A DNA stretch of 55,825 nt from an uncultured Pelagibacteraceae bacterium (GTDB lineage: Bacteria > Pseudomonadota > Alphaproteobacteria > Pelagibacterales > Pelagibacteraceae): assembly GCA_902536385.1 (NCBI GenBank), contig CACAWY010000007.1, positions 1 through 55,825 of the forward strand. Direction: 5' to 3'. The translations under genes were made by a program, and so were the position numbers. Each line of letters starts with the position of its first letter. The first letter of the stretch is position 1. Below the pieces are notes generated by a model that worked only from the letters and a program-made list of their open reading frames with translations, was not told the origin of the DNA and made no database searches. Positions 2,849 to 49,651 of this stretch are shown piece by piece.

Positions 2849-4768
2849 TTAATTTAAAGGCAACTTATTTAATTCTAACATATTTTTGATTAGGTCTTCT
2901 CTTTTAATTGTCATTTGTTTATCGGATCCCAGTTTCCTTACTGTGACTGTATTTTCTTCAACCTCTTTTTTCCCGCAGACAATTATAAATGGAATTTTTG
3001 CAAGCGAATGTTCTCTTACTTTGTAATTTATTTTTTCATTTCTTAAATCCATTTCACATTTTATACCTTCTTTAAACAAATCTTCAAATAACTTTTTAAC
3101 ATAATTATTATTGTCCTCTGCAATAGTACAAACAACTGCTTGAGCAGGTGACAACCAAAAAGGTAGTTTACCGGCATAGTTTTCGATTAAAATACCTATA
3201 AATCTCTCCAATGATCCGAATAAAGCCCTATGAAGCATAACGGGAATTTTTTTTGTTCCATCTTTCGCAACATATGAGGCACCTAATCTTCCGGGTAAAT
3301 TTAAATCTACTTGAAGAGTTCCACACTGCCAATCTCTTCCTATAGCATCTCGTAAAACGAACTCAATTTTTGGACCATAAAAAGCACCCTCACCTTTATT
3401 TACTGAATACTCAAGTTTGGATTTTTTTATTGCAGTCAAAAGTGCTGCCTCCGATTTATCCCAAACAGTGTCATCACCAACTCTTTTTTCAGGTCTATCT
3501 GAGTATTTTAATATTATATCTTTAAAACCTAAGTCTTTATAAATTTCTAAAATTAAGTTTGTTACTGACAGTGACTCTTCTGTAATTTGGTCTTCAGTGC
3601 AAAATATGTGTGCATCATCTTGAGTAAAGGCTCTCACTCTTAATAACCCATGTAAAGCTCCAGAAGGCTCATATCTATGAACTTTTCCAAACTCAGAAAG
3701 TTTTAAAGGTAAGTCTCGATAACTTTTAAGACCTTGATTAAACACCTGAACACATCCTGGACAATTCATTGGCTTGACCGCAAAAGTTTTTTTGTCAGGT
3801 GTGTCTGATGTAAACATGTGATCTCCAAACTTTTCCCAATGACCAGATTTTTCCCATAACGTCTTATCTAAGAGTTCTGGAGTATTTATTTCTTTATAAC
3901 CTGCGAGTCTTTGTTTCATTCTCATATATTCAACTAATCTTTGAAATAATAGCCAACCTTTCTCATGCCAAAATACTGATCCGGGACTTTCTTCTCTAAA
4001 ATGAAAAAGATCCATTTCTTTACCCAGTTTTCTATGATCTCTTTTTTCTGCCTCTTCTAAACGATGAAGATACTCCTCTAACTCTTTTTTTGAAGCCCAA
4101 CATGTTCCATAAATTCTCTGTAACATTTCATTGTTAGAGTCCCCTCTCCAGTACGCCCCAGAAACTTTTGTTAATTTGAACGCTTTTCCGATTTTACCTG
4201 ATGATGATAAATGAGGACCCCTGCACAAATCATGCCAAGTTTCTCCATGATGATAAACAGATAATTCTTCGTTAGTTGGTATGCTTTCAATAATCTCTGC
4301 TTTATATTTTTCTCCAATCTTTTTAAAGTGTGTTATAGCTTTATCCCTTTTCCAAACCTCTCTTTTTGTTTTTACATCTCTATCTACTATCTCTGACATT
4401 TTTTTTTCAATCTTTTTTAAATCTTCGCTTGTGAAGGGTTCTTTTCTTGCAAAATCATAATAAAATCCATTTTCAATTACTGGTCCGATTGTAACTTGAG
4501 TGCCGGGAAATAATTCCTGAACAGACATTGCCATAATATGAGCAGCATCGTGCCTGATAACTTCTAAACCTTCTCTGTCTTTAGATGTAATTATTCTTAC
4601 ATTTGAATTATTAGTAATTTCATGACTTAGATCTTTAAGTTGCCCATTCACCTCCATTATCAAGGCAGATTTTTCTAGAGACTTGCTGATTTTTTTAGTA
4701 ATTTCAAAGCCATTAATTGATTTTGTAAAAGATAATTTTTTTCCGTCTAATAAGTGAATTTGAGGCAT
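2849..4768 (-). CDS. thrS: Threonyl-tRNA synthetase
   Basis: Class II synthetase charging tRNA-Thr, 639 residues, full length. Domain order is TGS domain (about 1-62), editing/SAD domain (about 63-225), catalytic core (about 245-540) and C-terminal anticodon-binding domain. The SAD domain shows the HDAAH metal motif and HDLCRGPH. The core shows the zinc-site cysteine in KPMNCPGCVQVF, motif 2 (VHRYEPSGALHGLLRVRAF) and motif 3 (HRALFGSLERF). The stop codon abuts the GTG start of infC, and the start overlaps the stop of the upstream glycosyltransferase by one base. It therefore heads the usual thrS-infC-rpmI-rplT-pheST block but may be transcribed from further upstream. Confidence 0.97.
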   Translation of the reverse strand: MPQIHLLDGKKLSFTKSINGFEITKKISKSLEKSALIMEVNGQLKDLSHEITNNSNVRIITSKDREGLEVIRHDAAHIMAMSVQELFPGTQVTIGPVIENGFYYDFARKEPFTSEDLKKIEKKMSEIVDRDVKTKREVWKRDKAITHFKKIGEKYKAEIIESIPTNEELSVYHHGETWHDLCRGPHLSSSGKIGKAFKLTKVSGAYWRGDSNNEMLQRIYGTCWASKKELEEYLHRLEEAEKRDHRKLGKEMDLFHFREESPGSVFWHEKGWLLFQRLVEYMRMKQRLAGYKEINTPELLDKTLWEKSGHWEKFGDHMFTSDTPDKKTFAVKPMNCPGCVQVFNQGLKSYRDLPLKLSEFGKVHRYEPSGALHGLLRVRAFTQDDAHIFCTEDQITEESLSVTNLILEIYKDLGFKDIILKYSDRPEKRVGDDTVWDKSEAALLTAIKKSKLEYSVNKGEGAFYGPKIEFVLRDAIGRDWQCGTLQVDLNLPGRLGASYVAKDGTKKIPVMLHRALFGSLERFIGILIENYAGKLPFWLSPAQAVVCTIAEDNNNYVKKLFEDLFKEGIKCEMDLRNEKINYKVREHSLAKIPFIIVCGKKEVEENTVTVRKLGSDKQMTIKREDLIKNMLELNKLPLN

Positions 4769-5925
4769 TAATTTTTAAATAATTTTTTATATTCTCTTAA
4801 ATTAGAATCACACATTACTTCAACATCAAATTTTTTTGTTACGTTTTTTCTACCTTCGTTTCCAATTAATTTCAACTCTTCTTGACTTAATTGAATAACA
4901 CCATTTAAATTTTTAGCAAGATCTCTTGGATCGTCATGTTTATATAAAAAACCGGACTTTTTATTTAAAACGGTTTCTTTTGAACCACCAATATTACTGG
5001 CAATAATTGGTTTTCCCATAGCCTGAGACTCAACTGCAACCCTTCCAAAAGCCTCTGGCTCAGTTGAAGCGGAAACTACAACGTCTGCAAGAGAATAAGC
5101 TAACGGCATTTCTTTACAATGGCTTATAAATTTTAATTTTTTAGTTAAGCCGTACCTTTCAACTAGGCTAAAAAGCTTTTTTGTATAAACTTTTCTTCCT
5201 TGATCAGATCCTAATAATATTGCCTGAAAGTTAGTAATATTGTAGTCCTCAATTAAAATATTTAATGCTTCAATAAACTTTTCTTGACCTTTCCAATATG
5301 TAAGTCTACCTGGCATTAAAATTGTAAATTTATTCGGTTCTAAATTCCATTCTTTTTTAAGTTTTTCTTGCTTTAAAATTGAAATATTTTTTTGATTAAA
5401 GTAATCAATATTTATCCCTCTAAAAATAACTCTAAGTTTTCTTTTTTTTTTTAGATATTCACTATAATTTTCATTTATGTGATTAAAAATGAAATTTGAA
5501 CCAGCAATAGTCAACTTTGATCTTAACATTATGCTATTATAAAATTTTTTCAATTTACTTTTGAAATTGTAGGTCCCATGAAATGTAGTCACAAAATTTG
5601 TATTTGTTAAAAGACAAGCAAAATAACAAGACCAAGCAGGCGCTCTACTTCTTGCGTGAACAATATTAATTTTTTTAAAAACTATAAAAAGTGATAAAAT
5701 TATTGCATTTAAAATTATTAATAATGGATTTTTTGTTTGAACAGGAATTTTTAAAATCCCAACTTTATTCTTTTTAATAAACTTTAATAGTTCACCTCCA
5801 GAAGTTGCAATATAAGATCGGCAATCTTTCTCTGCTAAATAATGGGCTAAATCATAGCAACCTGTTTCAGCGCCACCATAGCCAAGTTTTGGAATGACTT
5901 GTAAAATATTTATTTTAGTAATCAT
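4768..5925 (-). CDS. GT4-family glycosyltransferase
   Basis: Predicted GT-B fold glycosyltransferase of 385 residues, probably adding a sugar to an envelope polysaccharide or lipid from a nucleotide-sugar donor on the cytoplasmic face of the membrane. The N-terminal Rossmann domain begins INILQVIPKLGYGGAETGCYDLA, here cited as KLGYGGAET, the acceptor-side Gly-rich loop of GT4 enzymes. The C-terminal domain has MPGRLTYWKGQEKFIEAL and the EPEAFGRVAVESQAMG motif, with the E-x7-E pair that contacts the donor. No signal peptide is visible. The gene overlaps thrS by one base and is divergent from the hydrolase at 5965 across a 39-bp gap. The sugar donor and acceptor cannot be read from the sequence. 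Confidence 0.88.
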   Translation of the reverse strand: MITKINILQVIPKLGYGGAETGCYDLAHYLAEKDCRSYIATSGGELLKFIKKNKVGILKIPVQTKNPLLIILNAIILSLFIVFKKINIVHARSRAPAWSCYFACLLTNTNFVTTFHGTYNFKSKLKKFYNSIMLRSKLTIAGSNFIFNHINENYSEYLKKKRKLRVIFRGINIDYFNQKNISILKQEKLKKEWNLEPNKFTILMPGRLTYWKGQEKFIEALNILIEDYNITNFQAILLGSDQGRKVYTKKLFSLVERYGLTKKLKFISHCKEMPLAYSLADVVVSASTEPEAFGRVAVESQAMGKPIIASNIGGSKETVLNKKSGFLYKHDDPRDLAKNLNGVIQLSQEELKLIGNEGRKNVTKKFDVEVMCDSNLREYKKLFKN

Positions 5926-10500: not shown

Positions 10501-12068
10501 AAGTTTTGTCTAAAGTAATGAGATACTGGCCTAAAATGACTTGATAATACTGCCACTGGCGTGTCGTCTCCCATTGAACCTGATGCCTCTTTTCCCTCTT
10601 CAGCCATTGGATGAAGAATTAATTCTAAATCTTCAATACTTAACCCTGACAAATATTGTCTCTTTCTCAATTCTTCACTTATATAATTTGGCTTTTCATC
10701 TTCATTTGAAATTTTCTTTTCTAAATCAATAATTTGTTTATTATATTTCCTATGATCTTTCGCTAATAAGTCTTTTATATCCTTATCTTTAAATAATTTG
10801 CCTTTTTTTAAATCTATCGCAATGATTTGGCCTGGGCCTAGTTTTCCTTTTTCAATTATATTTTCTTCAGGAATTTTTATCATTCCAGTTTCTGAGCCTG
10901 CAAAAAATAGATTGTCTGAAGTTATTGTGTACCTTAGTGGTCTCAATCCATTTCTATCAGAGGATGCTAGTACCCATTTAGCGTCAGTAGCACAAATGGC
11001 GGCTGGTCCATCCCAAGGTTCAATTGTGCTATTTAAGAAATTAAATAAATCTTGATGATTTTTTGGGACAGTTTTGCTTCTTTTAGACCATGCATCAGGT
11101 ATCATCATTAATTTTATCAAGGGCGCTAATTTTCCTGAGTGTACTAATAACTCAAAAACATTATCCAGTGCTCCTGAGTCTGAAGAACTTCTGATGACAG
11201 GTTTTAGGTCATTTACATTTTTAAATAATGAACTAGACATGTCTTGTTCATGTATTTTCATCCAATTGATATTTCCTTTCAGTGTATTTATCTCACCATT
11301 GTGTGCTAGCGTTCTGAATGGCTGTGCAAGATCCCAACTTGGAAAGGTATTAGTTGAATATCTCTGATGAAACACTGCAAACCTAGAAGTTAATTTTTTA
11401 TCATTTAGATCAGGATAAAACTCTGAAAGCATCTCTGCTAAAAACATGCCTTTATAGACAATAGATCTAGAACTGAATGAACAAATATAAAAATTTTTAA
11501 GCTGACTTTCCCTTGCAACTTTCTCTATTTTTTTTCTTGTTTCAAATAAGTCTCTCTCAAGGTCATTGGTCTTCAAATTTTCATTCTTTTTAAACATTAC
11601 TTGAGCTATTTCGGGTCTGCTTTGGTCAGCTGTTTTCCCAAGAACACTTGGGTTTATAGGAACTTGCCTCCAACCGTAAATGTAGTAATTTCCTTCTAGT
11701 AAAGCTGATTCAATTATTTCTCTACATTTTTCTTGCTCTGAATAATCAGTTCTTGGTAGAAAAACCATACCAACACAAATTCTTTTATGTTCGTCTAGTT
11801 TGTGACCTGTATTTAAAATTTTTTCTTTGAAAAAATCTGGAGCTATCTCAATTTGAATACCAGCTCCATCACCGGATTTTCCATCAGCGTCAACTGCTCC
11901 TCTATGCCAAATTGCTTTAAGAGCTTCAATGCCATACTCAACAACTTGTCTAGTTTTTTTTCCATTTGTTGAAGCAATTAATCCTACTCCGCAGGCATCG
12001 TGCTCCATTTCTGTTTTATAATTATGTGTTTTTTCTAAAAGAGTTTTATTCTTCTTATAATTATTCAT
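7572..12068 (-). CDS. gltB: Glutamate synthase (NADPH) large subunit
   Basis: Alpha subunit of NADPH-GOGAT, 1498 residues. It transfers the amide of glutamine to 2-oxoglutarate to give two glutamates, the main ammonium-assimilation route together with glutamine synthetase. The class II amidotransferase domain starts at the nucleophile Cys26 in HDACGVGLI after a short propeptide. A central domain follows, then the FMN-binding synthase domain (FGSGSMSHGALS, GGEDAKRF, KPGEGGQLPG, HSGGTGASP, RTDGGLKTGRDV). The 3Fe-4S cysteines are in CHSNTCPVGVC. The C-terminal beta-helix has repeated G-x-G strands (GSAGQSLGAF, GCGAHGCEYMTGG). It begins immediately after the gltD stop, as expected for two subunits of one enzyme. 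Confidence 0.98.
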   Translation of the reverse strand: MNNYKKNKTLLEKTHNYKTEMEHDACGVGLIASTNGKKTRQVVEYGIEALKAIWHRGAVDADGKSGDGAGIQIEIAPDFFKEKILNTGHKLDEHKRICVGMVFLPRTDYSEQEKCREIIESALLEGNYYIYGWRQVPINPSVLGKTADQSRPEIAQVMFKKNENLKTNDLERDLFETRKKIEKVARESQLKNFYICSFSSRSIVYKGMFLAEMLSEFYPDLNDKKLTSRFAVFHQRYSTNTFPSWDLAQPFRTLAHNGEINTLKGNINWMKIHEQDMSSSLFKNVNDLKPVIRSSSDSGALDNVFELLVHSGKLAPLIKLMMIPDAWSKRSKTVPKNHQDLFNFLNSTIEPWDGPAAICATDAKWVLASSDRNGLRPLRYTITSDNLFFAGSETGMIKIPEENIIEKGKLGPGQIIAIDLKKGKLFKDKDIKDLLAKDHRKYNKQIIDLEKKISNEDEKPNYISEELRKRQYLSGLSIEDLELILHPMAEEGKEASGSMGDDTPVAVLSSHFRPVSHYFRQNFSQVTNPPIDSLRENKVMSLKTRFGNLGNILDFDNLTEENIYVLDSPILTNSQFKKFKKFFSKKAKVIDCTFDVSLSLKDRIEEIREEAETSVREGSTCLILSDKNISNRKASIPSILIVGAVHSHLVKLGLRGYCSLNVECSDALDTHSFAVLIGVGATTVNPYLAIDSIYQRYEKKLFGKSDFESCVVKFKKSIDAGLLKIMSKMGISVISSYRGGCNFEAVGLSRAIVSDYFPGMSSRISGIGVIGIEKKIKELHVKFNEKNIFTLPIGGLYRYRKSGEDHQYQGRLIHLLQSAVGIGSYEQYKKYSAGIHNLPPINIRDLLEFKKTNKQISINEVEPLEEILKRFGSGSMSHGALSAEAHETLALGMNRIKGASCSGEGGEDAKRFKVLSNGDSSNSRVKQIASARFGVTVDYLNNANEIEIKIAQGAKPGEGGQLPGFKVTEEIARLRHSTPGVTLISPPPHHDIYSIEDLAQLIYDLKQINPKARVGVKLVASTGIGTIAAGVAKAKADIILISGHSGGTGASPQTSIKYAGIPWEMGLTEANQILTLNNLRHNVTLRTDGGLKTGRDVVIAAMMGAEEYGMGTSSLVAMGCIMVRQCHSNTCPVGVCSQDAALREKFRGTPEKVVNLFKFIATEVREILASLGFKSINEIIGRTDLLSQVNKGASNLDDLDLNPLLVQADPGENPRYCKDYHINKVPETLDEKIWQDIKDKINPSNKNNYTYEIENTFRSVGTRLSHHVYKKYGNEKLNDETINIKLTGSAGQSLGAFLTKGISLTVEGDCNDYVGKGLSGGTIVVKTSQKSKLIADQNTIIGNTVLYGATSGKLFASGQAGERFAVRNSGSFAIVEGCGAHGCEYMTGGTAIILGPVGDNFGAGMTGGMAFIYDENNNFENYANPASIIWQSVETEYWKKFLKDSIKEFQFKTLSKKGKKILNNFENELKNFKQVCPVEMLDKLDNPISSKPYIKKAG

Positions 12069-41989: not shown

Positions 41990-43666
41990 TTAATAAAGAT
42001 TTTCTAGTTGTTGTTTATAAATATTAATTATTTCTTTTCTTTTTAACTTTAAAGTTGGTGTAAGCATTCCGTTTTTAATTGAAAATTCTTCATGAATTAA
42101 GACAAATTTTTTAATTTTTTCTATTAAAGTTAACTTTTTATTTATATTTTCAATTATAAGTTTAATTTTTTCTTTATTAATTTCTTTATCGCTAACAATT
42201 AATGCAACTAAATAATTTTTTTTATCTCCGTAAACAAAAGATTGTTTAATATTTTCATTTAAACATAAAATATTTTCAACTTTACTAGGAGAAATGTTGT
42301 CACCACCAAAATTTACTATAATATCTTTTTTTCTATCTGTAATTTTTAAATAATTATTACTATCTAATTCTCCTATATCTCCAGTGTGTAACCACCCATC
42401 TTTAATTACTTTTTCTGTTTCTTCCTTTAAATTCCAATATCCCAACATGACGTTTTCACCCCTAATAAGAATTTCCCCATCTTTTGCAATTTTAACTTCA
42501 TTAGTTCTGAAGGGAGGGCCTACTGACTCGACCTTGACTAAATTTGGTAAGTTACAACTCACGACTGGGGAGGCTTCTGTTAAACCATATCCTTGTAATG
42601 TAGGTAAACCAACTGCATTTAAAAATTCTCCAATATTTTTATCTAGTGCCCCTCCTCCAGATATGAAGGCTTGGAGATTACCGCCAAACTGATTTCTGAT
42701 TTTTTTTCTTACTAATTTTTCACACAAAAAATTTGTAATTTTTTCACCAAATTTCAATTGCTCTTTATTGAGTGTTTTTTTACCTAATTTTAAAGTTTGA
42801 TTTATCAGTTTTCTTTTTAACCCTGATTGCCTTTCAAAATTCATATTTATTTTTGTAAAAAGATTTTGATAAAATCTAGGAACAGCTGTCATGATTGAAG
42901 GCTTTGCAATTCCCATATTAGAAATCAATTTTTCTAAACTTTCGGCATAGAAAACTTTTGCTTCAACTATAATTTGTATAAATTGAACTGTATGTTCATA
43001 AGAATGTGATAATGGTAACCAGGTCAAAAATACCGGATCTTTTTTTTTAGTTAAAATTTCTAGTAATTCTACTGCACCTTCACAGTTAGACAGAATACCG
43101 CCATGACTTAAAACAACTCCTTTAGGATTTCCAGAAGTACCTGAGGTATAAATTATACAAGCAGGCATATTCCGTTTTAAATCTTTATTAACAATTTTTT
43201 CATTAACTTCTTCATTTAATATTTCTTCAATTAATAAGGTTTCAGCATCTACTTCTTCAAAGGATATTATTTTCTTAACATCGCTATTTATAAAATTTTT
43301 AATTTTAAGGAATTGATCTTGATTTGACACAAAGATCAATGAGGGCTTACAATCGTTTAAAATATATTCATAATCATTTGAAGAATAAGTTGTAAAAATA
43401 GGAACTGAAATCCCTCCTGCATTCATGATAGCGATATCGGTCATCAACCAATACGGTCTATTCTCAGAAAGAATTAAACATCTATCACCTTTTTTTATTA
43501 ACGATTTAATTTTTGCAGTAAGTTTATAAATTCTTTGAGTTGTATCTTCCCAATTATAAATTCGATTATGTGGTTTTAACCATTTTAAGAATGGTCTTTT
43601 ACCATCAACTTCTTCTGTTTTTTTGAAATAAAGTTCAACTAAGCTGTTTAATTTACTTATATCCAT
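41990..43666 (-). CDS. Long-chain acyl-CoA synthetase (AMP-forming)
   Basis: Adenylate-forming ligase of 558 residues of the FadD/ACSL class, activating fatty acids to acyl-CoA with ATP. The P-loop is IIYTSGTSGNPKGVVLSHGG and the A5 motif GYGLTEASPVVSC. The hinge motif is TDRKKDIIVNFGGDNISP, where the G-G-D-N-I-S-P form is typical of long-chain enzymes. LTWLPLSHSYEHT is also typical of ACSL proteins. The C terminus is slightly short of the usual length, ending KLKRKEIINIYKQQLENLY. It lies just downstream of the tRNA-Leu locus on the same strand, five bases from the tRNA 3' end. Before the element inserted it would have followed an intact tRNA gene. Confidence 0.9.
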   Translation of the reverse strand: MDISKLNSLVELYFKKTEEVDGKRPFLKWLKPHNRIYNWEDTTQRIYKLTAKIKSLIKKGDRCLILSENRPYWLMTDIAIMNAGGISVPIFTTYSSNDYEYILNDCKPSLIFVSNQDQFLKIKNFINSDVKKIISFEEVDAETLLIEEILNEEVNEKIVNKDLKRNMPACIIYTSGTSGNPKGVVLSHGGILSNCEGAVELLEILTKKKDPVFLTWLPLSHSYEHTVQFIQIIVEAKVFYAESLEKLISNMGIAKPSIMTAVPRFYQNLFTKINMNFERQSGLKRKLINQTLKLGKKTLNKEQLKFGEKITNFLCEKLVRKKIRNQFGGNLQAFISGGGALDKNIGEFLNAVGLPTLQGYGLTEASPVVSCNLPNLVKVESVGPPFRTNEVKIAKDGEILIRGENVMLGYWNLKEETEKVIKDGWLHTGDIGELDSNNYLKITDRKKDIIVNFGGDNISPSKVENILCLNENIKQSFVYGDKKNYLVALIVSDKEINKEKIKLIIENINKKLTLIEKIKKFVLIHEEFSIKNGMLTPTLKLKRKEIINIYKQQLENLY

Positions 43667-43670
43667 AACT

Positions 43671-43726
43671 TGGTGGGCGAAGAGAGACTCGAACTCTCAA
43701 GGTATTGCTACCACCGGATTTTGAGT
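43671..43726 (-). pseudogene. 3' half of host tRNA-Leu(CAA), split by insertion
   Basis: This is the minus-strand 3' part of a tRNA-Leu. It holds the anticodon loop (ACTCAAAAT), the 3' anticodon stem CCGG, the long variable arm (GGTA-GCAA-TACC), the T arm with GTTCGAGTC, the acceptor strand TTCGCCC, the discriminator A and encoded CCA. It has no 5' half next to it: the bases upstream on the minus strand belong to the mobile element. The matching 5' half is at 48752-48791, and together they rebuild a normal 87-nt tRNA. Confidence 0.93.
43718..43726. repeat. Attachment-site core, left copy
   Basis: ATTTTGAGT, identical to 48752-48760. The central TTTTGAG is the complement of the 7-nt anticodon loop CTCAAAA and is the likely crossover region. 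In the rebuilt empty site it is flanked by CCGGA/TCCGG, the anticodon stem. In the rebuilt element circle it is flanked by ACAC/GTGT, a separate short inverted repeat. Both have the usual layout of integrase core sites. Confidence 0.88.
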
Positions 43727-43756
43727 AGTGTGAGTGCTTCATTAACCCAGTAAATC

Positions 43757-43804
43757 TTACGCAAATTACACATAAAATTATGATGTAAGAGTAATGTAAG
43801 ACTA
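43757..43804. repeat. Left attachment arm: integrase arm-type sites
   Basis: Tandem 11-bp repeats ATGTAAGAGTA (43783-43793) and ATGTAAGACTA (43794-43804) match the pair near the right end. A TTACGCAA at 43757-43764 is mirrored by TTGCGTAA at 48705-48712. The rest of 43727-44052 (326 bp) holds no gene that I can see; it should contain this arm and the promoter of the plus-strand operon. Confidence 0.65.
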
Positions 43805-44052
43805 TTCCTTTCTTTTATCAGTCTAATTTATACGCAACAGAAAATAAATTAAAAAAAAATATCAAATCCAGCACTCTGCTTGTCTAAATAGTTATGTAAT
43901 GTTGAAGTATATTGAATGACCTGCGTAAGATACAATTAAATGCTCGTTTAAATAGTATCTTCTCTTGTCTTCTTACTGAAACATTTATCACTAGATAATT
44001 TTAGTCTACGACACTTTTATTGATGATGTGAGAAATAATAAAGTCGTCTTTG

Positions 44053-44553
44053 ATGACTTACGCTGAAATGCGTTTAAACGAAAGATACGAAATGAGATAC
44101 AAACGAGACTACGATAGAGAACAATTGAATAAGAGTTTTAAGTTAATAAAAGATACTGATGAGAATATACATTTAAAAGACAGACTAATTTCAGTATCAA
44201 CTCAAAAGACTAATTACTCAAAGAAGAAACTGCTTAAAATATTGTCTGTTTTAAACGCAATGCTGAACAGACGATTTTTGACTAGAAATTATATGACTAG
44301 AACAGATAGAGTAATTTTTTACTCATTTTTAGAGAAGTCACCAAGTAAGAAATTGCTTCATTCTCATATGATTTTGAGAGTGCCAAAATTCATAATGACT
44401 AATTATGAAAAATTAAGAGAGTTTTTTAGATACTTTAAAAAGAAAGTATTGAACTTCAATATGACTTATACGAACTATAAAAGACGAGATATTGCTACTA
44501 GATATTCGTCAAAAGAGTTCAACTCAAAAAACGATAATTACTTCGTATTTTGA
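44053..44553 (+). CDS. Candidate HUH-type Rep/relaxase-like endonuclease
   Basis: Basic protein of 166 residues from ATG 44053 (a TTG one codon earlier is open but not needed). No family was certain on reading, but three motifs in the right order suggest a single-Tyr HUH endonuclease. These are a strand ending in LISVSTQ (about 45-51), HSHMIL with His103 and His105 (about 103-108), and RYSSKE with Tyr151 and Lys154 (a Y-x2-K). YSFLEKSPSKKLLHSHMILRVP resembles the EK..HxH.l..P pattern of rolling-circle Rep proteins (cited here as FLEKSPS and HSHMILRVP). The length fits a stand-alone nuclease domain. It is the first gene of the plus-strand operon, followed by a hairpin at 44557-44574. A role in replicating or mobilising the excised element is inferred. 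Confidence 0.45.
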   Translation: MTYAEMRLNERYEMRYKRDYDREQLNKSFKLIKDTDENIHLKDRLISVSTQKTNYSKKKLLKILSVLNAMLNRRFLTRNYMTRTDRVIFYSFLEKSPSKKLLHSHMILRVPKFIMTNYEKLREFFRYFKKKVLNFNMTYTNYKRRDIATRYSSKEFNSKNDNYFVF

Positions 44554-44556
44554 TGA

Positions 44557-44574
44557 ATGAGTACAACTACTCAT
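44557..44574. repeat. Short hairpin after the Rep-like gene
   Basis: ATGAGTA and TACTCAT form a perfect 7-bp inverted repeat around the tetraloop CAAC, three bases after the stop codon of the Rep-like gene. There is no T tract, so it is not a clear terminator. A nick-site hairpin or an mRNA 3' structure is possible. The region 44554-44643 otherwise holds only a competing 43-codon frame starting at 44622. Confidence 0.45.
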
Positions 44575-44643
44575 AAATATCAAAAGAACTCATCTATGCG
44601 TTTCTGAAAAGATTTAACAAGATGAAAAAAAAGAGAACTAGAT

Positions 44644-44802
44644 ATGAACCCAAAGATAAAAGAACTACAAAGAAAAATAGACAACGCAATAAGTCAAAAG
44701 AAAAGAATGATGACCTTATCTTTATTAGACGAATTGCGTGCCGAACAAAATAAAGAAGAAAAACAAATTATACAGAAATTAAAACAAGAGAAGAAGTTAT
44801 GA
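44644..44802 (+). CDS. Small coiled-coil-like protein, 52 residues
   Basis: ORF from ATG 44644 to TGA 44800-44802. It encodes a highly charged helical peptide (MNPKIKELQRKIDNAISQKK, then LSLLDELRAEQ and a Lys/Glu-rich tail) with heptad-like Leu/Ile spacing. Its stop overlaps the ATG of the next gene in an ATGA arrangement, which supports it as a real, coupled gene. A second frame from ATG 44622 overlaps it and encodes a Lys/Arg-rich 43-residue peptide; the coupling makes me prefer the 52-residue one. No function is recognised. Confidence 0.45.
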   Translation: MNPKIKELQRKIDNAISQKKRMMTLSLLDELRAEQNKEEKQIIQKLKQEKKL

Positions 44803-45164
44803 CCTTAATAACAAGAAATTTAGAACAAATAAGAAGAGTTGCTAGTCAACATACAAAAGATTTAAAAAAACAAAATACTCAACCTGACTATTCAAATATT
44901 ACAGATACAATGAAGATAGACATTGCGTCTATGAGAAAGTCTAAATTCCATAAAGAGACAAAGAATTACCTATCAACAGATGTTGCTGAAGAAGAGTTAA
45001 TGATGACTTTAAATCATTATTCACTTCACTCTTATAGAGATAGAGTAATGTCGTTTATTACTAAAATTACTCAACAACAACCAAGTGCTTTTACTATGCG
45101 AGTTTGTGCTGAATTTTTGAGTGATATTTTAAACGAATATAAAATAAAGAAAAACATAAAGTAA
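44799..45164 (+). CDS. Element-encoded protein of unknown function, 121 residues
   Basis: I do not recognise this protein. It is predicted to be largely helical and charged, with no signal peptide or membrane segment. The central part ELMMTLNHYSLHSYRDRVMSF and the end MRVCAEFLSDILNEYKIKKN look like two amphipathic helices. It is translated through an ATGA overlap with the 52-residue ORF and is followed after 10 bases by the ribbon-helix-helix-like gene. Operon position suggests a replication or control accessory; nothing in the sequence proves that. Confidence 0.6.
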   Translation: MTLITRNLEQIRRVASQHTKDLKKQNTQPDYSNITDTMKIDIASMRKSKFHKETKNYLSTDVAEEELMMTLNHYSLHSYRDRVMSFITKITQQQPSAFTMRVCAEFLSDILNEYKIKKNIK

Positions 45165-45174
45165 AGATAAGACA

Positions 45175-45363
45175 ATGAAACAAAGAAACTCCCAAAAAAA
45201 GAAAAATATAACGATTTGTGTTGACCCAGTTCAATACGAAATTTTTAAAAACAGAAGAACTAACAATCTTCAATCTGTATCGTCCTTCATTAACCAATTT
45301 ATTACTTACTCAAATCAATCTACAATCGCTGAAAGTAAGATTTTGAATGCGATAAATAGTTAA
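45175..45363 (+). CDS. Ribbon-helix-helix-like small DNA-binding protein
   Basis: Protein of 62 residues. A basic N terminus (KQRNSQKKK) precedes NITICVDPVQYEIFKNRRT, which fits the beta strand and first helix of the RHH/CopG fold. LQSVSSFINQFI fits the second helix with the conserved Ser before it. Such proteins bind short palindromes as dimers and often repress copy number or recombination genes. Candidate operators in the element are the inverted repeat at 47116-47139 and the repeats in the attachment arms. It is the last gene of the plus-strand operon. The fold call rests on pattern only. Confidence 0.55.
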   Translation: MKQRNSQKKKNITICVDPVQYEIFKNRRTNNLQSVSSFINQFITYSNQSTIAESKILNAINS

Positions 45364-45377
45364 TGATTTAACATAAC

Positions 45378-45447
45378 GAGTGTGTGTGCTTTTCTATCAG
45401 CAAACTTTGTATCGTATCTTGTAAAGTTTTCATTAACACACACACTC
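45378..45447. repeat. Nested hairpin/cruciform between convergent element operons
   Basis: GAGTGTGTGTG (45378-45388) pairs perfectly with CACACACACTC (45437-45447). Inside it AAACTTT (45402-45408) pairs with AAAGTTT (45423-45429). It fills the 90-bp space between the 3' ends of the plus and minus operons, so a bidirectional terminator is the simple reading. Its elaborate form also allows a replication-origin role. Confidence 0.6.
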
Positions 45448-45453
45448 ACTCAT

Positions 45454-45900
45454 TTAAGTGTCTAACTTGTATTCAATAACAATATAACTTCTATACTTTC
45501 CACCTTGTACAAAAGTTTTATCATAAACAATTTTGTATTGATTTAAATTAGTCTCAAATATTTGTGCTACTTCATTTGAAGTATAAGATTTATTGATACC
45601 AGACTTTGTATCTTCTTTAATAGTTTGACTTTCATTTTTAATTAACGAATTAGACAAACTATCACTTACTAAAACCTTTGCTTGTAAAAGTGCTTTAGAT
45701 TTTGCTAGTTCAAACGATTTGCTAGTAGAAGTACCGCAACCATAAATCTTGCTATCGCTACTTTTGTATTTACTACAAACTGCTTCATTAACTTTAAGAA
45801 AGTCCGACATATTGCTAATAGTAGTTTTATTCTTTGCTATATTGTTTGATGAACAACCAACAAGAACAAGACCGACTAATAAGACTAGAATAGTCCTCAT
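45454..45900 (-). CDS. LPP20-like lipoprotein
   Basis: Protein of 148 residues with a lipoprotein signal peptide: MRTILVLLVGLVLVGC gives a lipobox L-V-G-C with Cys16 as the lipidated residue. The mature part has IYGCGTSTSKSFELAKSKALLQAKVLVSDSL. This is the A-x3-A-type helical pattern of LPP20/FlgP-like outer-membrane lipoproteins, followed by a beta-rich C terminus (YRSYIVIEYKL). A strong Shine-Dalgarno (AAAGGGGG) precedes the ATG. It is the last gene of the minus-strand operon that starts with the serine recombinase. A surface role such as altering the host envelope is possible but not shown. Confidence 0.7.
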   Translation of the reverse strand: MRTILVLLVGLVLVGCSSNNIAKNKTTISNMSDFLKVNEAVCSKYKSSDSKIYGCGTSTSKSFELAKSKALLQAKVLVSDSLSNSLIKNESQTIKEDTKSGINKSYTSNEVAQIFETNLNQYKIVYDKTFVQGGKYRSYIVIEYKLDT

Positions 45901-45914
45901 TTATTTACCCCCTT

Positions 45915-46154
45915 TCAAAGATTTTCTAAAATTCCCATAAACACCATAATTACCGAGTTTTGATACCTCTCATCAGTTAACCAAGTGACCAAGAAATTTT
46001 GTTTGTTAAGTGTTTCTGTTTCAGTACAAGACTTGATGATTTTTTCGCTAATTACTTTACCATTTTCAATAACTTGTTGTGTTTGATAAACGCAATTGTC
46101 TTCTGCCTTTGCTACTGAAATTAAAAATAGAAATATAAAAACAAATCTAATCAT
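45915..46154 (-). CDS. Small exported protein, 79 residues
   Basis: I choose ATG 46154 (MIRFVFIFLFLISVAKA), which has a GAAAGG Shine-Dalgarno seven bases upstream; an upstream in-frame ATG at 46172 would place a charged tail before the signal peptide. A signal peptide is clear, with cleavage likely after AKA. The mature part has two cysteines (NCVYQ and KSCTE), suggesting one disulfide, and a hydrophobic C terminus (NSVIMVFMGILENL). The 5' end overlaps the upstream gene by 8 bases. The family is unknown. Confidence 0.6.
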   Translation of the reverse strand: MIRFVFIFLFLISVAKAEDNCVYQTQQVIENGKVISEKIIKSCTETETLNKQNFLVTWLTDERYQNSVIMVFMGILENL

Positions 46155-46392
46155 AGATTTGCCTTTCAACATTCAACAATTCTTTTTGAAGTTTAGTACC
46201 TATCAATTTTAATAGTAGAATAGTCGCATAATCCGCCTCATTTTTAATGATTTTTGAACGACAATGACTATTACATTCAGAACTGAACATATGAGTAATT
46301 GTTGCCTCAAAATATGAAGTAGAACGACCAAATGCTACTGCTGTTGTTAATAGACAGAAACTAAAGAAAAGAATTGTTAACAATCTAAACAT
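46147..46392 (-). CDS. Small exported protein, 81 residues
   Basis: Starts at ATG 46392 (MFRLLTILFFSFCLL), within the end of the serine recombinase gene (8-base overlap), with AAAGGAAT as a plausible ribosome site. The signal peptide probably ends at AVA/FGRS. The mature part contains SSECNSHCRSK, a close cysteine pair, then NEADYATILLLKLIGTKL, an amphipathic helix. It resembles small periplasmic accessory proteins but no family is recognised. It overlaps the next exported protein gene by 8 bases, so the operon is tightly coupled. Confidence 0.6.
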   Translation of the reverse strand: MFRLLTILFFSFCLLTTAVAFGRSTSYFEATITHMFSSECNSHCRSKIIKNEADYATILLLKLIGTKLQKELLNVERQIYD

Positions 46393-47095
46393 CACACATA
46401 TTCCTTTCTAACTCTACATTGCTAATGTTTTTGATTAGTTGTTCTTCTCTATCTCTAGTTAAGAGTTTGTTAATGAAAGAAAAATGCCATTTTCTACTAG
46501 TATATTTTTCCATAAATGACTTAATCTCTTTATACTTTTTACCTTTTGCTCTTAACGATTTAACGAGATTAATTTCTTTCTGTTCTTTTTCACAAACAAC
46601 AAGTTGACCATTTTCACCCAAGTCATAACCTTTTTTGACTTTGCCACCTGTGTATTTGCCTTGTTTTATCATTTTATCTTTTGCTATTTTTTGTTTTTCA
46701 GATAACGATTTTCTGTACCATTCAGACATAATAGAAAGTATCTGATAAAAGACTGACCCAAGACTATCAGATGAAATAACATCTCCTAAATCAGTAAAGA
46801 TTAGTCTGATTTTAAGTCTTCTATATTTCTCAACATCATTAACTAACCCATAATGAGAACGAGAATATCTATCTAATGCTGAACAGATAATAGTATCGCC
46901 TTTTTTAAGTTTAGTAGTTAACAAACCACCTTGCTCTCTTTGATAAAGTAATAATCCACCAGAACACACATCTTCAAACCATTCGTTAACTCTTAAATTG
47001 TGAATATTACAATACGAATTTATTTTGAATTTTTGTGTATCAAAAGAACTTGTTTTACCTTCTTCACTAGACTTTCGTAAGTATCCATAAATCAT
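46385..47095 (-). CDS. Serine recombinase (resolvase/invertase type)
   Basis: Site-specific recombinase of 236 residues. The N-terminal catalytic domain begins IYGYLRKSSEEG, with Ser9 as the nucleophile and Arg7 nearby. GDTIICSALDRYSRSHYG is the conserved D-R-x-S-R block, and SEWYRKSLSEKQK ends the E helix. The C-terminal part (INLVKSLRAKGKKYKEIKSF) is a helix-turn-helix DNA-binding region. The AAAGGAG Shine-Dalgarno is strong. A perfect 9+9 inverted repeat lies 21 bases before the start. It probably resolves dimers or inverts a segment, or controls its own operon; a main integrase role is already covered by the tyrosine recombinase. It is the first gene of an operon carrying three exported proteins. 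Confidence 0.93.
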   Translation of the reverse strand: MIYGYLRKSSEEGKTSSFDTQKFKINSYCNIHNLRVNEWFEDVCSGGLLLYQREQGGLLTTKLKKGDTIICSALDRYSRSHYGLVNDVEKYRRLKIRLIFTDLGDVISSDSLGSVFYQILSIMSEWYRKSLSEKQKIAKDKMIKQGKYTGGKVKKGYDLGENGQLVVCEKEQKEINLVKSLRAKGKKYKEIKSFMEKYTSRKWHFSFINKLLTRDREEQLIKNISNVELERNMCDV

Positions 47096-47115
47096 AAAAA
47101 ACTCCTTTCAATTAA

Positions 47116-47139
47116 TTCACTATGATAAGACATAGTGAA
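47116..47139. promoter_or_regulatory. 24-bp palindrome at the serine recombinase promoter
   Basis: TTCACTATG-ATAAGA-CATAGTGAA, perfect 9-bp arms, ends 21 bases before the recombinase start codon. Position and symmetry suggest an operator, for the RHH-like protein or for the recombinase itself, or a recombination half-site pair. Confidence 0.6.
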
Positions 47140-47267
47140 AACGCTAACAAAAACCTAGTCCTAGTCAACCATTTGCTTGTATTGATACTCTTACACAATC
47201 CAATAGACAATTATGACTTACACAAAAAGAACGACTATTTGATGAATTTTTATGATTTTAAAGTGAG

Positions 47268-47353
47268 TGGTGCGAGAGATGGGACTTGAACCCATACGTC
47301 CTTACGAACAAAAGTTTTTGAAACTTTCTTGTCTGCCTTTCCAACACTCTCGC
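47268..47353 (-). tRNA. Element-borne complete tRNA-Leu(CAA)
   Basis: 86-nt tRNA on the minus strand with encoded CCA. The acceptor GCGAGAG pairs with CTCTCGC, the discriminator is A, and the long variable arm is GTTC-GTAA-GGAC. The anticodon stem AAAGT/ACTTT encloses the loop TTCAAAA, giving anticodon CAA (decodes UUG). The T arm contains GGGTTCAAGTCCC. It differs throughout from the split host gene, including the anticodon stem and loop position 32, yet has the same anticodon. It lies 20 bases after the integrase stop codon on the same strand. Confidence 0.95.
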
Positions 47354-47373
47354 ATAAAGTTTTATTAAAAAAA

Positions 47374-48630
47374 TTAAGATACTGATTTTAGTTTAGTTCG
47401 TCCTGTAGTCAACCAGACATCTAACATACTTTCTATTGCTGAATTTGCTGTGTAATGATTATCAATCATTGCTGTACTTGTTCCACAATTCTTTGCTATT
47501 GCGTTTGAATGTACACCTTTGTCCAACATAAATTGAATAAACATATTTCTAAAAGACTTACTATCAATAGTAAGAACAGCATCACCTCTTTTGATAGTCT
47601 TTAATTTTGCCTCATTAAGTAAAGAGTTAAGTCCTTCTCTAAAAGAATTAACACCCCATATTCTACCTTTTAACTGACCAAGACCTGTTGTCTTATATAA
47701 AGTGATTAGTCGTTTGTATGCGAAATATGCTGATGAAACAGACTTACAAAATCGTTCATTAGTTTTAGATTTTCTGACCCATATTTTTAGATAGTACCTT
47801 GAGTTATCGTCTAATTTAATTTCATTCAACAATGCTTGTTTAGACTTTTGCCTATCAACCAAAGTCACATCTTCAAAGTGTAAATTAAGACATTCATCAA
47901 CCCTTAAACCAGTACCGACCATAAACACTATAAATTGATGTAATCGTTCTCTTTCAAATCTAATTCTTAAAGTACGACCAGATTGATACCTTTTCCTAGA
48001 GACAGATTGTAAAGTTTTATATTGTTCATAAGTAAGACCTGCTCTTTTAGTCCTTTGTGACCTTAATTTTTTAGATAGTATTTTTGCTATATTCTCTAAC
48101 TTATCTTTTCTGATTTTGTTATTATAACACCATTTATTAAAACCTGAGATTGCCATTAAATCTCCTTTTAAAGTTGCCCCTCTTAATACTTTAGATTGTG
48201 CTTTTGCTCTTGCTAATCTCCAAACCATATAAGTCTTTTGTAAATCAGTTGATGTATAAGTCGCTGCCTTTAAATTCATAAAGTCATTACATTTAGAAAT
48301 GTAGTTCCATCTCTCTTTGTACCAAGTCTTTGTTCGTTGCTCTTTATCAGTTGAATTTTGAATATCAGATAAGAAACGATTTAATAAATCTTTGATTGAA
48401 TTTTGATGTATTTGAATATTATGTTTCTTTTTAAATTGTAGTTCATCATACCATTTAAAAAGTATGTCTTTTGCCTTTGTGAAGTTAGAAGTACCAGATG
48501 ATTTAATAGTTTGTTTAGATTGTATGAAAGTTCTACCTACCCAATTTTTAGACCTTAACTTACCATTGTATCTGTCTGTACGAACATAGATGTGTAATTT
48601 ATTGTCTTTAAATGAGTGAATTTTGCCCAT
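47374..48630 (-). CDS. int: Tyrosine recombinase (integrase)
   Basis: Phage-type integrase of 418 residues. The N-terminal ~70 residues are a basic arm-binding domain (KLRSKNWVGRTFIQSKQT). A helical core-binding domain spans about 80-180, and the catalytic domain about 200-400. Catalytic residues visible are Arg243 in GTGLRVDECLNL, a Lys near 287 (VRKSKTNE), Arg361 in SKSFRNMF and the nucleophile Tyr393 in MIDNHYTAN. The usual His of H-x-x-R is Lys358 here, a tolerated variant, and the second His/Trp position is Thr (NCGTST). The start lies about 120 bases downstream of the tRNA 5' half on the same strand. The replacement tRNA follows 20 bases after the stop codon. Confidence 0.95.
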   Translation of the reverse strand: MGKIHSFKDNKLHIYVRTDRYNGKLRSKNWVGRTFIQSKQTIKSSGTSNFTKAKDILFKWYDELQFKKKHNIQIHQNSIKDLLNRFLSDIQNSTDKEQRTKTWYKERWNYISKCNDFMNLKAATYTSTDLQKTYMVWRLARAKAQSKVLRGATLKGDLMAISGFNKWCYNNKIRKDKLENIAKILSKKLRSQRTKRAGLTYEQYKTLQSVSRKRYQSGRTLRIRFERERLHQFIVFMVGTGLRVDECLNLHFEDVTLVDRQKSKQALLNEIKLDDNSRYYLKIWVRKSKTNERFCKSVSSAYFAYKRLITLYKTTGLGQLKGRIWGVNSFREGLNSLLNEAKLKTIKRGDAVLTIDSKSFRNMFIQFMLDKGVHSNAIAKNCGTSTAMIDNHYTANSAIESMLDVWLTTGRTKLKSVS

Positions 48631-48676
48631 ACTTTAGAAAAGTATAACACATTTTAATCAATGCGTGTATAGAATG

Positions 48677-48712
48677 ATGTTAGAGTGATGTAAGATAATG
48701 CGTATTGCGTAA
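48677..48712. repeat. Right attachment arm: integrase arm-type sites
   Basis: Tandem 11-bp repeats ATGTTAGAGTG (48677-48687) and ATGTAAGATAA (48688-48698) are in the same orientation as the left pair. TTGCGTAA at 48705-48712 is the inverse of the left TTACGCAA. The 54-bp distance to the core nearly matches the 57 bp on the left. Confidence 0.65.
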
Positions 48713-48724
48713 AACCTAGACCTA
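48711..48724. repeat. Copy of a 14-bp motif also at 47150-47163
   Basis: AAAACCTAGACCTA here and AAAACCTAGTCCTA at 47150-47163 differ at one base, in the same orientation. They flank the integrase plus tRNA-Leu module. They could be accessory-protein sites or a trace of module acquisition; chance is not excluded. Confidence 0.35.
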
Positions 48725-48751
48725 ATTTGACTTATTTGAACTAATTAACAC

Positions 48752-48791
48752 ATTTTGAGTCCGGCGCGTCTACCAGTTCCACCATTCGCCC
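48752..48791 (-). pseudogene. 5' half of host tRNA-Leu(CAA), split by insertion
   Basis: This is the minus-strand 5' part of the split tRNA. It holds the acceptor strand GGGCGAA, the D arm (GGTGGAACTGGTAGACGCG), the 5' anticodon stem CCGG and the loop up to ACTCAAAAT. Downstream bases (GTGTTAATTAG) cannot form the 3' anticodon stem, T arm or acceptor strand, so no functional tRNA can form here. The host promoter upstream of 48791 is retained and now points into the element toward integrase. The last 9 bases (48752-48760) are the right copy of the core repeat. Confidence 0.93.
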
Positions 48792-48805: not shown

Positions 48806-49651
48806 CTAATTGATTTTTCTTACTATGAGAACAAAAATAATAGAGGTACAAAGCATAACTAAAGCGTAGGCTGCTGTAGGTACCATAAACATAATATCAT
48901 CAAATAATTGTGTTGTTACAAACACTGCTAAAGTTCCGTTTTGTAAGCCACATTCTAATGAAATACATTTTCTTTGCGCAATACCTGTTGTCCAAAATTT
49001 TGCAACATAATATCCAACAAAAATCATAGTCATATTTAAAATGAAAGCTATTAACCCTGCTTTAGTTATATAAGAAACAATATTATCCCACTCCTCTACA
49101 TAAATTGCGATAAATACTACTAAAAATAAAATTACTGACAATCTTTGAATAATTAGAGTTTTGGAAATAATAAAATTAGGCATTAAGCTTCTAACAGTCA
49201 TTCCAAAAATAACAGGAACGGTTACTACAAAGAACATTTTAATTGATATATTAAACATTGATATATCTTTTGCTGTCTCAATCCCTAAAAATTCAGCCGA
49301 ATTAAAGATTATTAATGGAACGGTGAAAATACTTAATAAACTGACAATCGATGTTAGACTTACTGATAAAGCAACATCTCCATCAGCAAACTTGGTAAGA
49401 ATATTAGAGGTTACTCCTCCTGGTGCTGCAGCTATTACCATAACTCCTAAAGCTATTTCTGGTGTAAGCGAAATAATGTTAATTAAAATTAAAGCAATTA
49501 TTGGAAGCAAAATAACCTGACATAAAAAACCTACAAAGAAATCTCTTGGGCTTTTTAAGACTCTTGTAAAATTTCCAACCGTTAAGCCAAGACCTAAACC
49601 GAACATTATTATGGCGAGACATACGGGTGCTATTTTAGTTACGATTTCCAC
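48806..49651 (-). CDS. Bile-acid:sodium symporter family (BASS) transporter
   Basis: Membrane protein of 281 residues with about nine to ten transmembrane helices, BASS/SBF family. It shows IIMFGLGLGLTVGNFTRVLKSP near the start (cited as FGLGLGLTVGNF), MVIAAAPGGVTSNILTKFADGDVALS with the conserved P-G-G crossover helix, and SLECGLQNGTLAVFV with the E-x-G-x-Q-N signature that forms the Na+ site. Bacterial members import organic anions such as pantoate or keto acids; the substrate is not assigned. It is transcribed toward the split tRNA gene and is preceded by the tandem-HTH gene after 17 bases. Confidence 0.9.
   Translation of the reverse strand: MEIVTKIAPVCLAIIMFGLGLGLTVGNFTRVLKSPRDFFVGFLCQVILLPIIALILINIISLTPEIALGVMVIAAAPGGVTSNILTKFADGDVALSVSLTSIVSLLSIFTVPLIIFNSAEFLGIETAKDISMFNISIKMFFVVTVPVIFGMTVRSLMPNFIISKTLIIQRLSVILFLVVFIAIYVEEWDNIVSYITKAGLIAFILNMTMIFVGYYVAKFWTTGIAQRKCISLECGLQNGTLAVFVTTQLFDDIMFMVPTAAYALVMLCTSIIFVLIVRKIN

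Follow-up and report, generated by a model that had tools for sequence, protein, structure and literature searches.

A 5-kb element of a SAR11-type bacterium that splits the host tRNA-Leu(CAA) gene and carries a tRNA-Leu(CAA) of its own

Analysis of a 55,825-nucleotide (nt) stretch of DNA (hereafter the window: positions 1 to 55,825, forward strand, of contig CACAWY010000007.1, assembly GCA_902536385.1 of an uncultured Pelagibacteraceae bacterium) revealed that the tRNA-Leu(CAA) gene of this SAR11-type host is cut within its anticodon loop by an element of 5,034 base pairs (bp), a length that includes one copy of the core sequence shared by both junctions. The interrupted gene is not rebuilt at either end of the insertion, and a different, complete tRNA-Leu(CAA) gene is carried inside it. 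We consider it highly probable (roughly 0.86) that this is a small integrative element of SAR11-type bacteria which uses tRNA-dependent integration, so that the host gene is split and replaced by the element's own tRNA-Leu(CAA). This is a known but recent kind of integration in a new sort of carrier, and the case is real and well supported.

Both halves of the host gene lie on the reverse strand. The 5′ half (40 nt, 48752..48791) is on the attR side and ends in the core ACTCAAAAT (48752..48760), which covers the anticodon loop and extends one base beyond it in both directions. The 3′ half (56 nt including an encoded CCA, 43671..43726) is on the attL side and begins with the second copy of the core (43718..43726, also on the reverse strand). 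The inserted element without the cores spans 5,025 bp (43727..48751; no strand assigned). The two halves overlap in the 9-mer ACTCAAAAT, as read on the tRNA strand, and together give a gene of 87 nt. No tRNA was called by ARAGORN at either element/host junction in the window, and inspection by eye revealed no complementary extensions beside the two host halves.

An exact copy of the rejoined 87-nt gene is present in 46 of 60 genomes of the same genus, and a copy with 93–98% identity in four more; the remaining ten genomes (61–82% complete) contained neither the intact gene nor the two halves. In all 30 loci fetched from among the 46, the rejoined gene was present and the flanks of the window met with an overlap of exactly the 9-bp core. 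Both flanks could be aligned over at least 869 bp in 24 of these empty sites. In the other six (L039, L043, L045, L047, L051 and L062) one flank aligned over only 42–82 bp beside the joint, which shows that the neighbouring sequence differs there. The exact gene in 46 of 60 genomes and the 9-bp joint in 30 of 30 loci led us to reject chance similarity of the halves: the insertion is real. A preliminary description of this DNA had located the split at the same coordinates, with an 87-nt gene, a 9-bp overlap and no restored half at either end, and had anticipated an intact empty site in relatives; all of these points were borne out.

A profile scan of genome contigs identified three further loci encoding a full integrase of this type: L067 (Pelagibacteraceae AG-447-K09; integrase 87% identical to that of the window), L069 (Pelagibacteraceae AG-920-D05; 67%) and L068 (on a contig assigned to the bin Verrucomicrobia TMED44; 74%). 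The integrase is rare at full length: three of 397 family genomes (the window's genome included) and two of 399 genomes in the genus of L067 encode such a relative. The remaining 48 of 51 family matches cover only the N-terminal part of the integrase profile. The L067 and L069 elements occupy the orthologous tRNA-Leu(CAA) gene, with the acyl-CoA synthetase gene on its 3′ side, and the sequence common to both junctions measures 9 bp in L067, as in the window, and 8 bp in L069. ARAGORN called no junction tRNA in the elements of the relatives. In all three insertions (window, L067 and L069) the halves of the host tRNA gene are undecayed, and the gene order integrase–tRNA–resolvase is identical in all four elements.

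The window's genome (974 kb in 23 contigs, 81.5% complete) yielded 28 tRNAs. Four of them are tRNA-Leu, with the anticodons TAG, TAA, GAG and CAA, and the single CAA copy belongs to the element. No second close copy of the host gene was present in any of the 60 same-genus genomes. In the genomes of L067 (G240, 96% complete) and L069 (G410, 89% complete) the tRNA matches of at least 81 nt were read (eight and seven, respectively); the sole CAA tRNA among them is that of the element, beside Leu TAA, TAG and GAG, and a second host copy was rejected for both genomes as far as they are complete. Of 120 other genomes in the genus of L067, 94 carry the rejoined L067 gene at full length with at least 83% identity, and in 42 of these the match is exact.

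The tRNA-Leu(CAA) of the element (47268..47353, reverse strand) is the single tRNA that ARAGORN identified in the element region, and it starts 20 bp downstream of the stop codon of the integrase gene. Only 48 of 82 aligned positions are identical to the host gene, which agrees with the earlier claim that a different tRNA is carried inside. All four elements contain a tRNA-Leu(CAA) that begins 20–21 bp past the integrase stop codon on the same strand, and its isotype and anticodon are those of the gene interrupted by the three integrated elements (the target gene of L068 was not seen). In the three insertions the integrase–tRNA pair is located downstream of the host 5′ half and in the same direction.

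The four element tRNAs are equal pairwise at 53–63 of 80–82 positions (about 64–78%), and 98.9% of the cells of their cloverleaf are paired, with changes on both sides in 15 of the 24 stem pairs. The covariation score of this four-row alignment was 0.764, versus 0.259 in shuffles (none of 500 reached the observed value) and at most 0.132 with slid partners. The structure had been written from these same sequences, which gives it an advantage over the slid controls but has no bearing on the double changes. The picture was unchanged when the host gene was added. Since pairing has been kept, with double-sided changes, in spite of strong divergence, these genes look selected as tRNAs. A promoter scan for the element tRNA returned six sites versus a shuffle mean of 11.3, and a candidate promoter (a 10-of-12 match ending approximately 30 nt upstream) was given no weight because sites were fewer than in the shuffles.

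The flanking host gene is 62–68% identical at the amino acid (aa) level between the three insertions, and the core of the element (resolvase to lipoprotein) is 95.7–97.8% identical in DNA. An element identity so far above that of the flanking gene indicates that the element moved between species. Compared part by part, the window and L067 elements share 89% identity in the integrase, 69% in the tRNA (47268–47353 against L067 9279–9362), 95% in the resolvase, 100% in the three small exported-type genes and 59% in the candidate replication initiator (Rep); the corresponding values for the window and L069 are 71%, 66%, 92%, 98–100% and 58%. Divergence peaks at the candidate-Rep end of the element. 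In the L067 comparison the tRNA differs more than either neighbouring gene, which suggests that it has been replaced or is changing fast, as if the tRNA alone were exchanged; against L069 it is only slightly more divergent than the integrase. A weak integrase match with several stop codons, perhaps a decayed relative, was also observed in a near-complete genome (L146, G106:C1:940822-941004).

The whole contig of L068 (L163; 15,522 bases) consists of approximately 3.06 tandem copies of the element (period 5,064–5,065, about 98.7% alike) and contains no host flank. Its G+C content (0.30) differs from that of ten loci of the same bin (0.35–0.48), so the contig was probably misbinned as Verrucomicrobia and is likely to be a contamination of that public genome. 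The L068 attP can be read through uncut, as TTATCGT-ACTCAAAAT-GTGTCG, and it closely matches the element sides of the L067 junctions (TTATCGT at attL, GTATCG at attR). A circular or concatemeric form of the element is thereby indicated. Octamers of the sequence CTCTTACA or CTCTAACA flank attP on both sides; L067 and L068 have them in pairs spaced by 11 bp, and the window has single copies (CTCTAACA inside attR at 48678..48685, which has paired copies in L067 and L068, and CTCTTACA inside attL at 43784..43791, both on the reverse strand). In L069 such an octamer was found on one side of attP only, and similar octamers occur a few more times within the elements. The flanking octamers look like possible arm sites of the integrase.

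We propose that the tyrosine integrase would recombine the 9-bp attP core with the identical anticodon-loop sequence of the host tRNA-Leu(CAA), a loop whose stem could provide symmetric core sites. The host halves lie 5 kb apart and the gene is rebuilt at neither end; the element tRNA, presumably expressed and charged, would take over from the lost isoacceptor. Because the integrase–tRNA pair lies downstream of the 5′ half in the same direction, the host's own tRNA transcription could run into it. An integrated element would thereby be protected, as loss or damage of its tRNA would deprive the cell of tRNA-Leu(CAA). Precise excision should bring the host gene back, but nothing would make up for loss of the element tRNA alone.

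Several observations weigh against this proposal. UUG makes up just 10.3 per 1000 codons in the host open reading frames (ORFs) of the window, and tRNA-Leu(UAA), which can in general read UUG by wobble, is present in the window's genome; with this tRNA present and UUG rare, loss of tRNA-Leu(CAA) may be tolerable to the host. At 81.5% completeness, this genome could still contain a second tRNA-Leu(CAA). The tRNA of the window element scores 50.5 bits, below 26 of the other 27 tRNAs of the genome. The undecayed host halves fit a recent insertion or frequent excision, not long dependence, and assembly of a small circle could have generated the tandem contig. The preliminary description had tied host decoding of UUG to the element: no other tRNA-Leu(CAA) was found, as that claim supposes, but tRNA-Leu(UAA) may read the codon, and the dependence of the host is unproven.

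The same facts could be read as ordinary integration into a tRNA gene, with the internal tRNA as passenger cargo that aids the codon usage of the element or of a helper phage while tRNA-Leu(UAA) reads UUG. The presence of tRNA-Leu(UAA) and the frequency of UUG in the element (15.9 per 1000, in only 818 codons, versus 10.3 in the host ORFs) agree with such a role. However, four of four elements carry the isotype and anticodon of the gene interrupted in the three that are integrated, and the element tRNAs hold their fold despite strong divergence. Furthermore, all 20 genomes of the L067 genus that are at least 90% complete match the host gene (one being the split copy itself, 19 the others). We regard simple cargo as unlikely. 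It is much less probable still that the host halves yield a working tRNA, either because the element often excises in the population or because the halves are joined in trans: their undecayed state in all three insertions and the indicated tandem or circular form would suit this idea, but it is opposed by the uncalled junctions and the missing complementary extensions noted above, and tRNAs joined in trans are not known from bacteria. An artefact of assembly or binning can be practically discounted. The window does come from a fragmented, incomplete genome of 23 contigs, and misassembly had been named in advance as an objection to the split; nevertheless, two other Pelagibacteraceae genome records, from other species, show the orthologous locus split in the same way between host flanks, and the fourth copy (L068) shows the predicted attP.

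Beyond replacement of the host tRNA, we put forward, as a speculative and rather doubtful extension, that the elements form a family of minimal SAR11 satellites of approximately 5 kb in which the tRNA serves as an anchoring module and makes up one unit with the integrase gene, integration may switch on the replacement tRNA via the host upstream region, the tRNA is swapped or re-tuned more quickly than the genes beside it, and rebuilding of the tRNA is the solution used by a related element at the same crossover point. That the vehicle is a helper phage is our guess. The related element (L154), from another family of the same order, lies at tRNA-Leu(CAA) and encodes relatives of the resolvase (42%), a small protein (42%) and the lipoprotein (37%). 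Its 40-nt 5′ half is exactly duplicated, occurring alone at 4553–4592 and within a complete tRNA at 11335–11419, which adjoins an integrase-like gene with Pfam matches below the cut-off. We infer that the L154 element supplies the 5′ half, so that the tRNA is rebuilt.

Other islands were observed at this and another target. In a sister family, regions flanked by a partial 5′ copy and a full tRNA-Leu(CAA) were found in two loci (L155, 4382–10255; L156, 4159–10001), and by eye the L156 island contains large genes resembling those of type I restriction-modification systems. In this family tRNA-Leu(CAA) appears to be a hotspot of integration. In two genomes (L157 and L158) a tmRNA gene has relatives of the resolvase and lipoprotein only a few kb away, which suggests sister elements using tmRNA as their integration site.

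Nine proteins of the window element were analyzed, five of them encoded on the reverse strand. The tyrosine integrase (418 aa, 47374..48630) matches Pfam PF00589 (E=6.2e-6; 26.5 bits, just under the cut-off of 27.1) and the PHROG family "integrase" (E=1.7e-12). It is followed by a serine recombinase of the resolvase/invertase type (236 aa, 46385..47095; PF00239, E=7.5e-23), by two small proteins whose N-termini appear signal-like by eye (82 aa, 46147..46395, its gene being 100% identical in DNA in L067 and L069; and 85 aa, 45915..46172), and by a lipoprotein-like protein (148 aa, 45454..45900) with a signal-like N-terminus, a weak LPP20 match below the cut-off and distant relatives (27–29%) in five contigs of IMG/VR (L031–L035). 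The integrase shares its N-terminal domain (approximately 70–100 aa) with the N-terminus of a PilM-like pilus protein (Pfam PilM_2) in a genome of the same genus (L030, 1498–3204), with many long open frames of relatives (48 partial matches, 397 genomes) and with small IMG/VR proteins, where a hydrophobic segment follows (by eye; L034, 5980–6330).

The forward strand encodes a small conserved protein (62 aa, 45175..45363), a conserved protein of 121 aa (44799..45164), whose PF11865 "mTOR" match was dismissed as below the cut-off, and a 52-aa ORF (44644..44802) with no match in Pfam or PHROGs, which resembles by eye the 49–52-aa ORFs at the same place in L067, L068 and L069. The fourth protein (167 aa, 44050..44553) is the candidate Rep. 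It and its relatives (151–167 aa) contain invariant HxH and YxxK motifs, which we take to be the signature of rolling-circle initiators. Its match to Pfam REP_ORF2-G2P is weak (E=0.036; 14.8 bits versus a cut-off of 27.8; one of four members). The fold prediction gave a mean predicted local distance difference test score (pLDDT) of 60 and a predicted template modelling score (pTM) of 0.59, with one viral match at 6.5e-4, no PDB fold match at E ≤0.001 and no PDB sequence match. This protein is a possible rolling-circle initiator, the assignment being weak. The host genes on the two sides of the insertion, both on the reverse strand, encode an acyl-CoA synthetase-like protein (AMP-binding; 41990..43666) and a member of the bile-acid/sodium symporter family (48806..49651).

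Among the nine proteins, Pfam and PHROGs recognised no phage structural family, and thus none of the virion genes that define a temperate phage; neither were relaxase or mating-pair genes, which define integrative conjugative elements, recognised. A tblastn search of 50,697 phage records with the integrase gave no match at E 1e-5. In plasmid records its relatives were only 23–30% identical (four records), and those of the resolvase were below 60% in 22 records (28–32% among the five matches listed). A search of IMG/VR with the full integrase returned only the N-terminal domain (five contigs), and there was no IMG/VR match for the resolvase, the C-terminal integrase profile, the candidate Rep, the 121-aa protein or one exact 26-mer. 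Because these searches gave no virus-derived copy, the satellite idea is unproven. Phage searches with the host and element tRNAs retrieved tRNA-Leu genes of many unrelated phages; for the host gene, Gaia and Nebkiss ranked among the top matches. The matches listed for either tRNA included no phage whose name marks it as a SAR11 phage.

Prochlorococcus tycheposons usually carry the restoring tRNA end. Like the window element they are marine and tRNA-associated and encode a tyrosine recombinase, a likeness drawn from a second-hand description in the accessible part of PMC10872708. VEIMEs and the PICMI satellites of marine Vibrionaceae are also very small marine integrative elements, the former likened by description and not by sequence. 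According to the accessible text of PMC10803314, PICMIs replicate by the rolling-circle mode and are packaged as concatemers, which recalls the tandem array of L068; they integrate next to fis, whereas the window element is located in tRNA-Leu(CAA).

The preliminary description had presented the design as unusual. A split, unrestored tRNA gene and an isoacceptor inside the element were indeed found, but the design is not new in principle (PMC10865867, PMC6811365, PMC11476347). Phage-related insertions of Sinorhizobium meliloti replace an inactivated tRNA gene with a foreign isoacceptor; as described in the accessible sections of PMC11476347, these are prophages or phage-derived islands in another bacterial group and involve other tRNAs. 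Such replacement is absent in another prophage group, according to the part of PMC12429752 that was available. uv-Fonsiphage-EPL, a prophage of Fonsibacter (freshwater SAR11), shares with our element a SAR11 host, a tRNA-Leu target and a tRNA-Leu of its own, described in the accessible text of Chen et al. (2019, PMC6811365) as replacing the lost function. It differs in being a 39-kb HTVC019P-type phage at tRNA-Leu(TAG), and the likeness is one of description, not sequence. Among the papers listed by full-text searches, with subscription papers largely outside their reach, no report of this design in an element of approximately 5 kb without phage genes was noticed.

The closest parallel is tRNA-dependent lysogeny, defined in actinobacteriophages (Guerrero-Bustamante and Hatfull 2024, PMC10865867, as available in part). 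In Mycobacterium phage Gaia the target is tRNA-Leu-CAA, the core measures 8 bp and a tRNA-Leu-CAA is carried downstream of Int; phage Omega, with a related integrase, rebuilds the tRNA (PMC10865867). Common to this lysogeny and our element are a tyrosine integrase, an attB within a host tRNA gene, a core of approximately 10 bp (9 bp here; 8 bp in L069), no reconstruction of the target and a cognate tRNA. The carriers differ, being actinobacterial temperate phages (the Gaia record is 90 kb) on the one hand and a 5-kb SAR11-type element without recognisable virion genes on the other.

What is new is that an element of 5 kb without recognisable phage structural genes brings its own tRNA to a split host gene, that its tRNA diverges faster than its neighbours, and that a related element rebuilds the tRNA instead. 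Integration of this type is thus extended from whole phages to a small element in a bacterial group that ranks among the most abundant in the ocean, with the design seen at one tRNA in two host genera and intact empty sites in dozens of relatives. L154 and the window element appear to share the target and the crossover point and to have adopted opposite solutions, as have Omega and Gaia. Since the two elements belong to the same order of hosts and have genes in common, the question of whether carriage of a tRNA came before or after loss of the restoring end, left open in the accessible part of the 2024 paper (PMC10865867), becomes testable by comparison.

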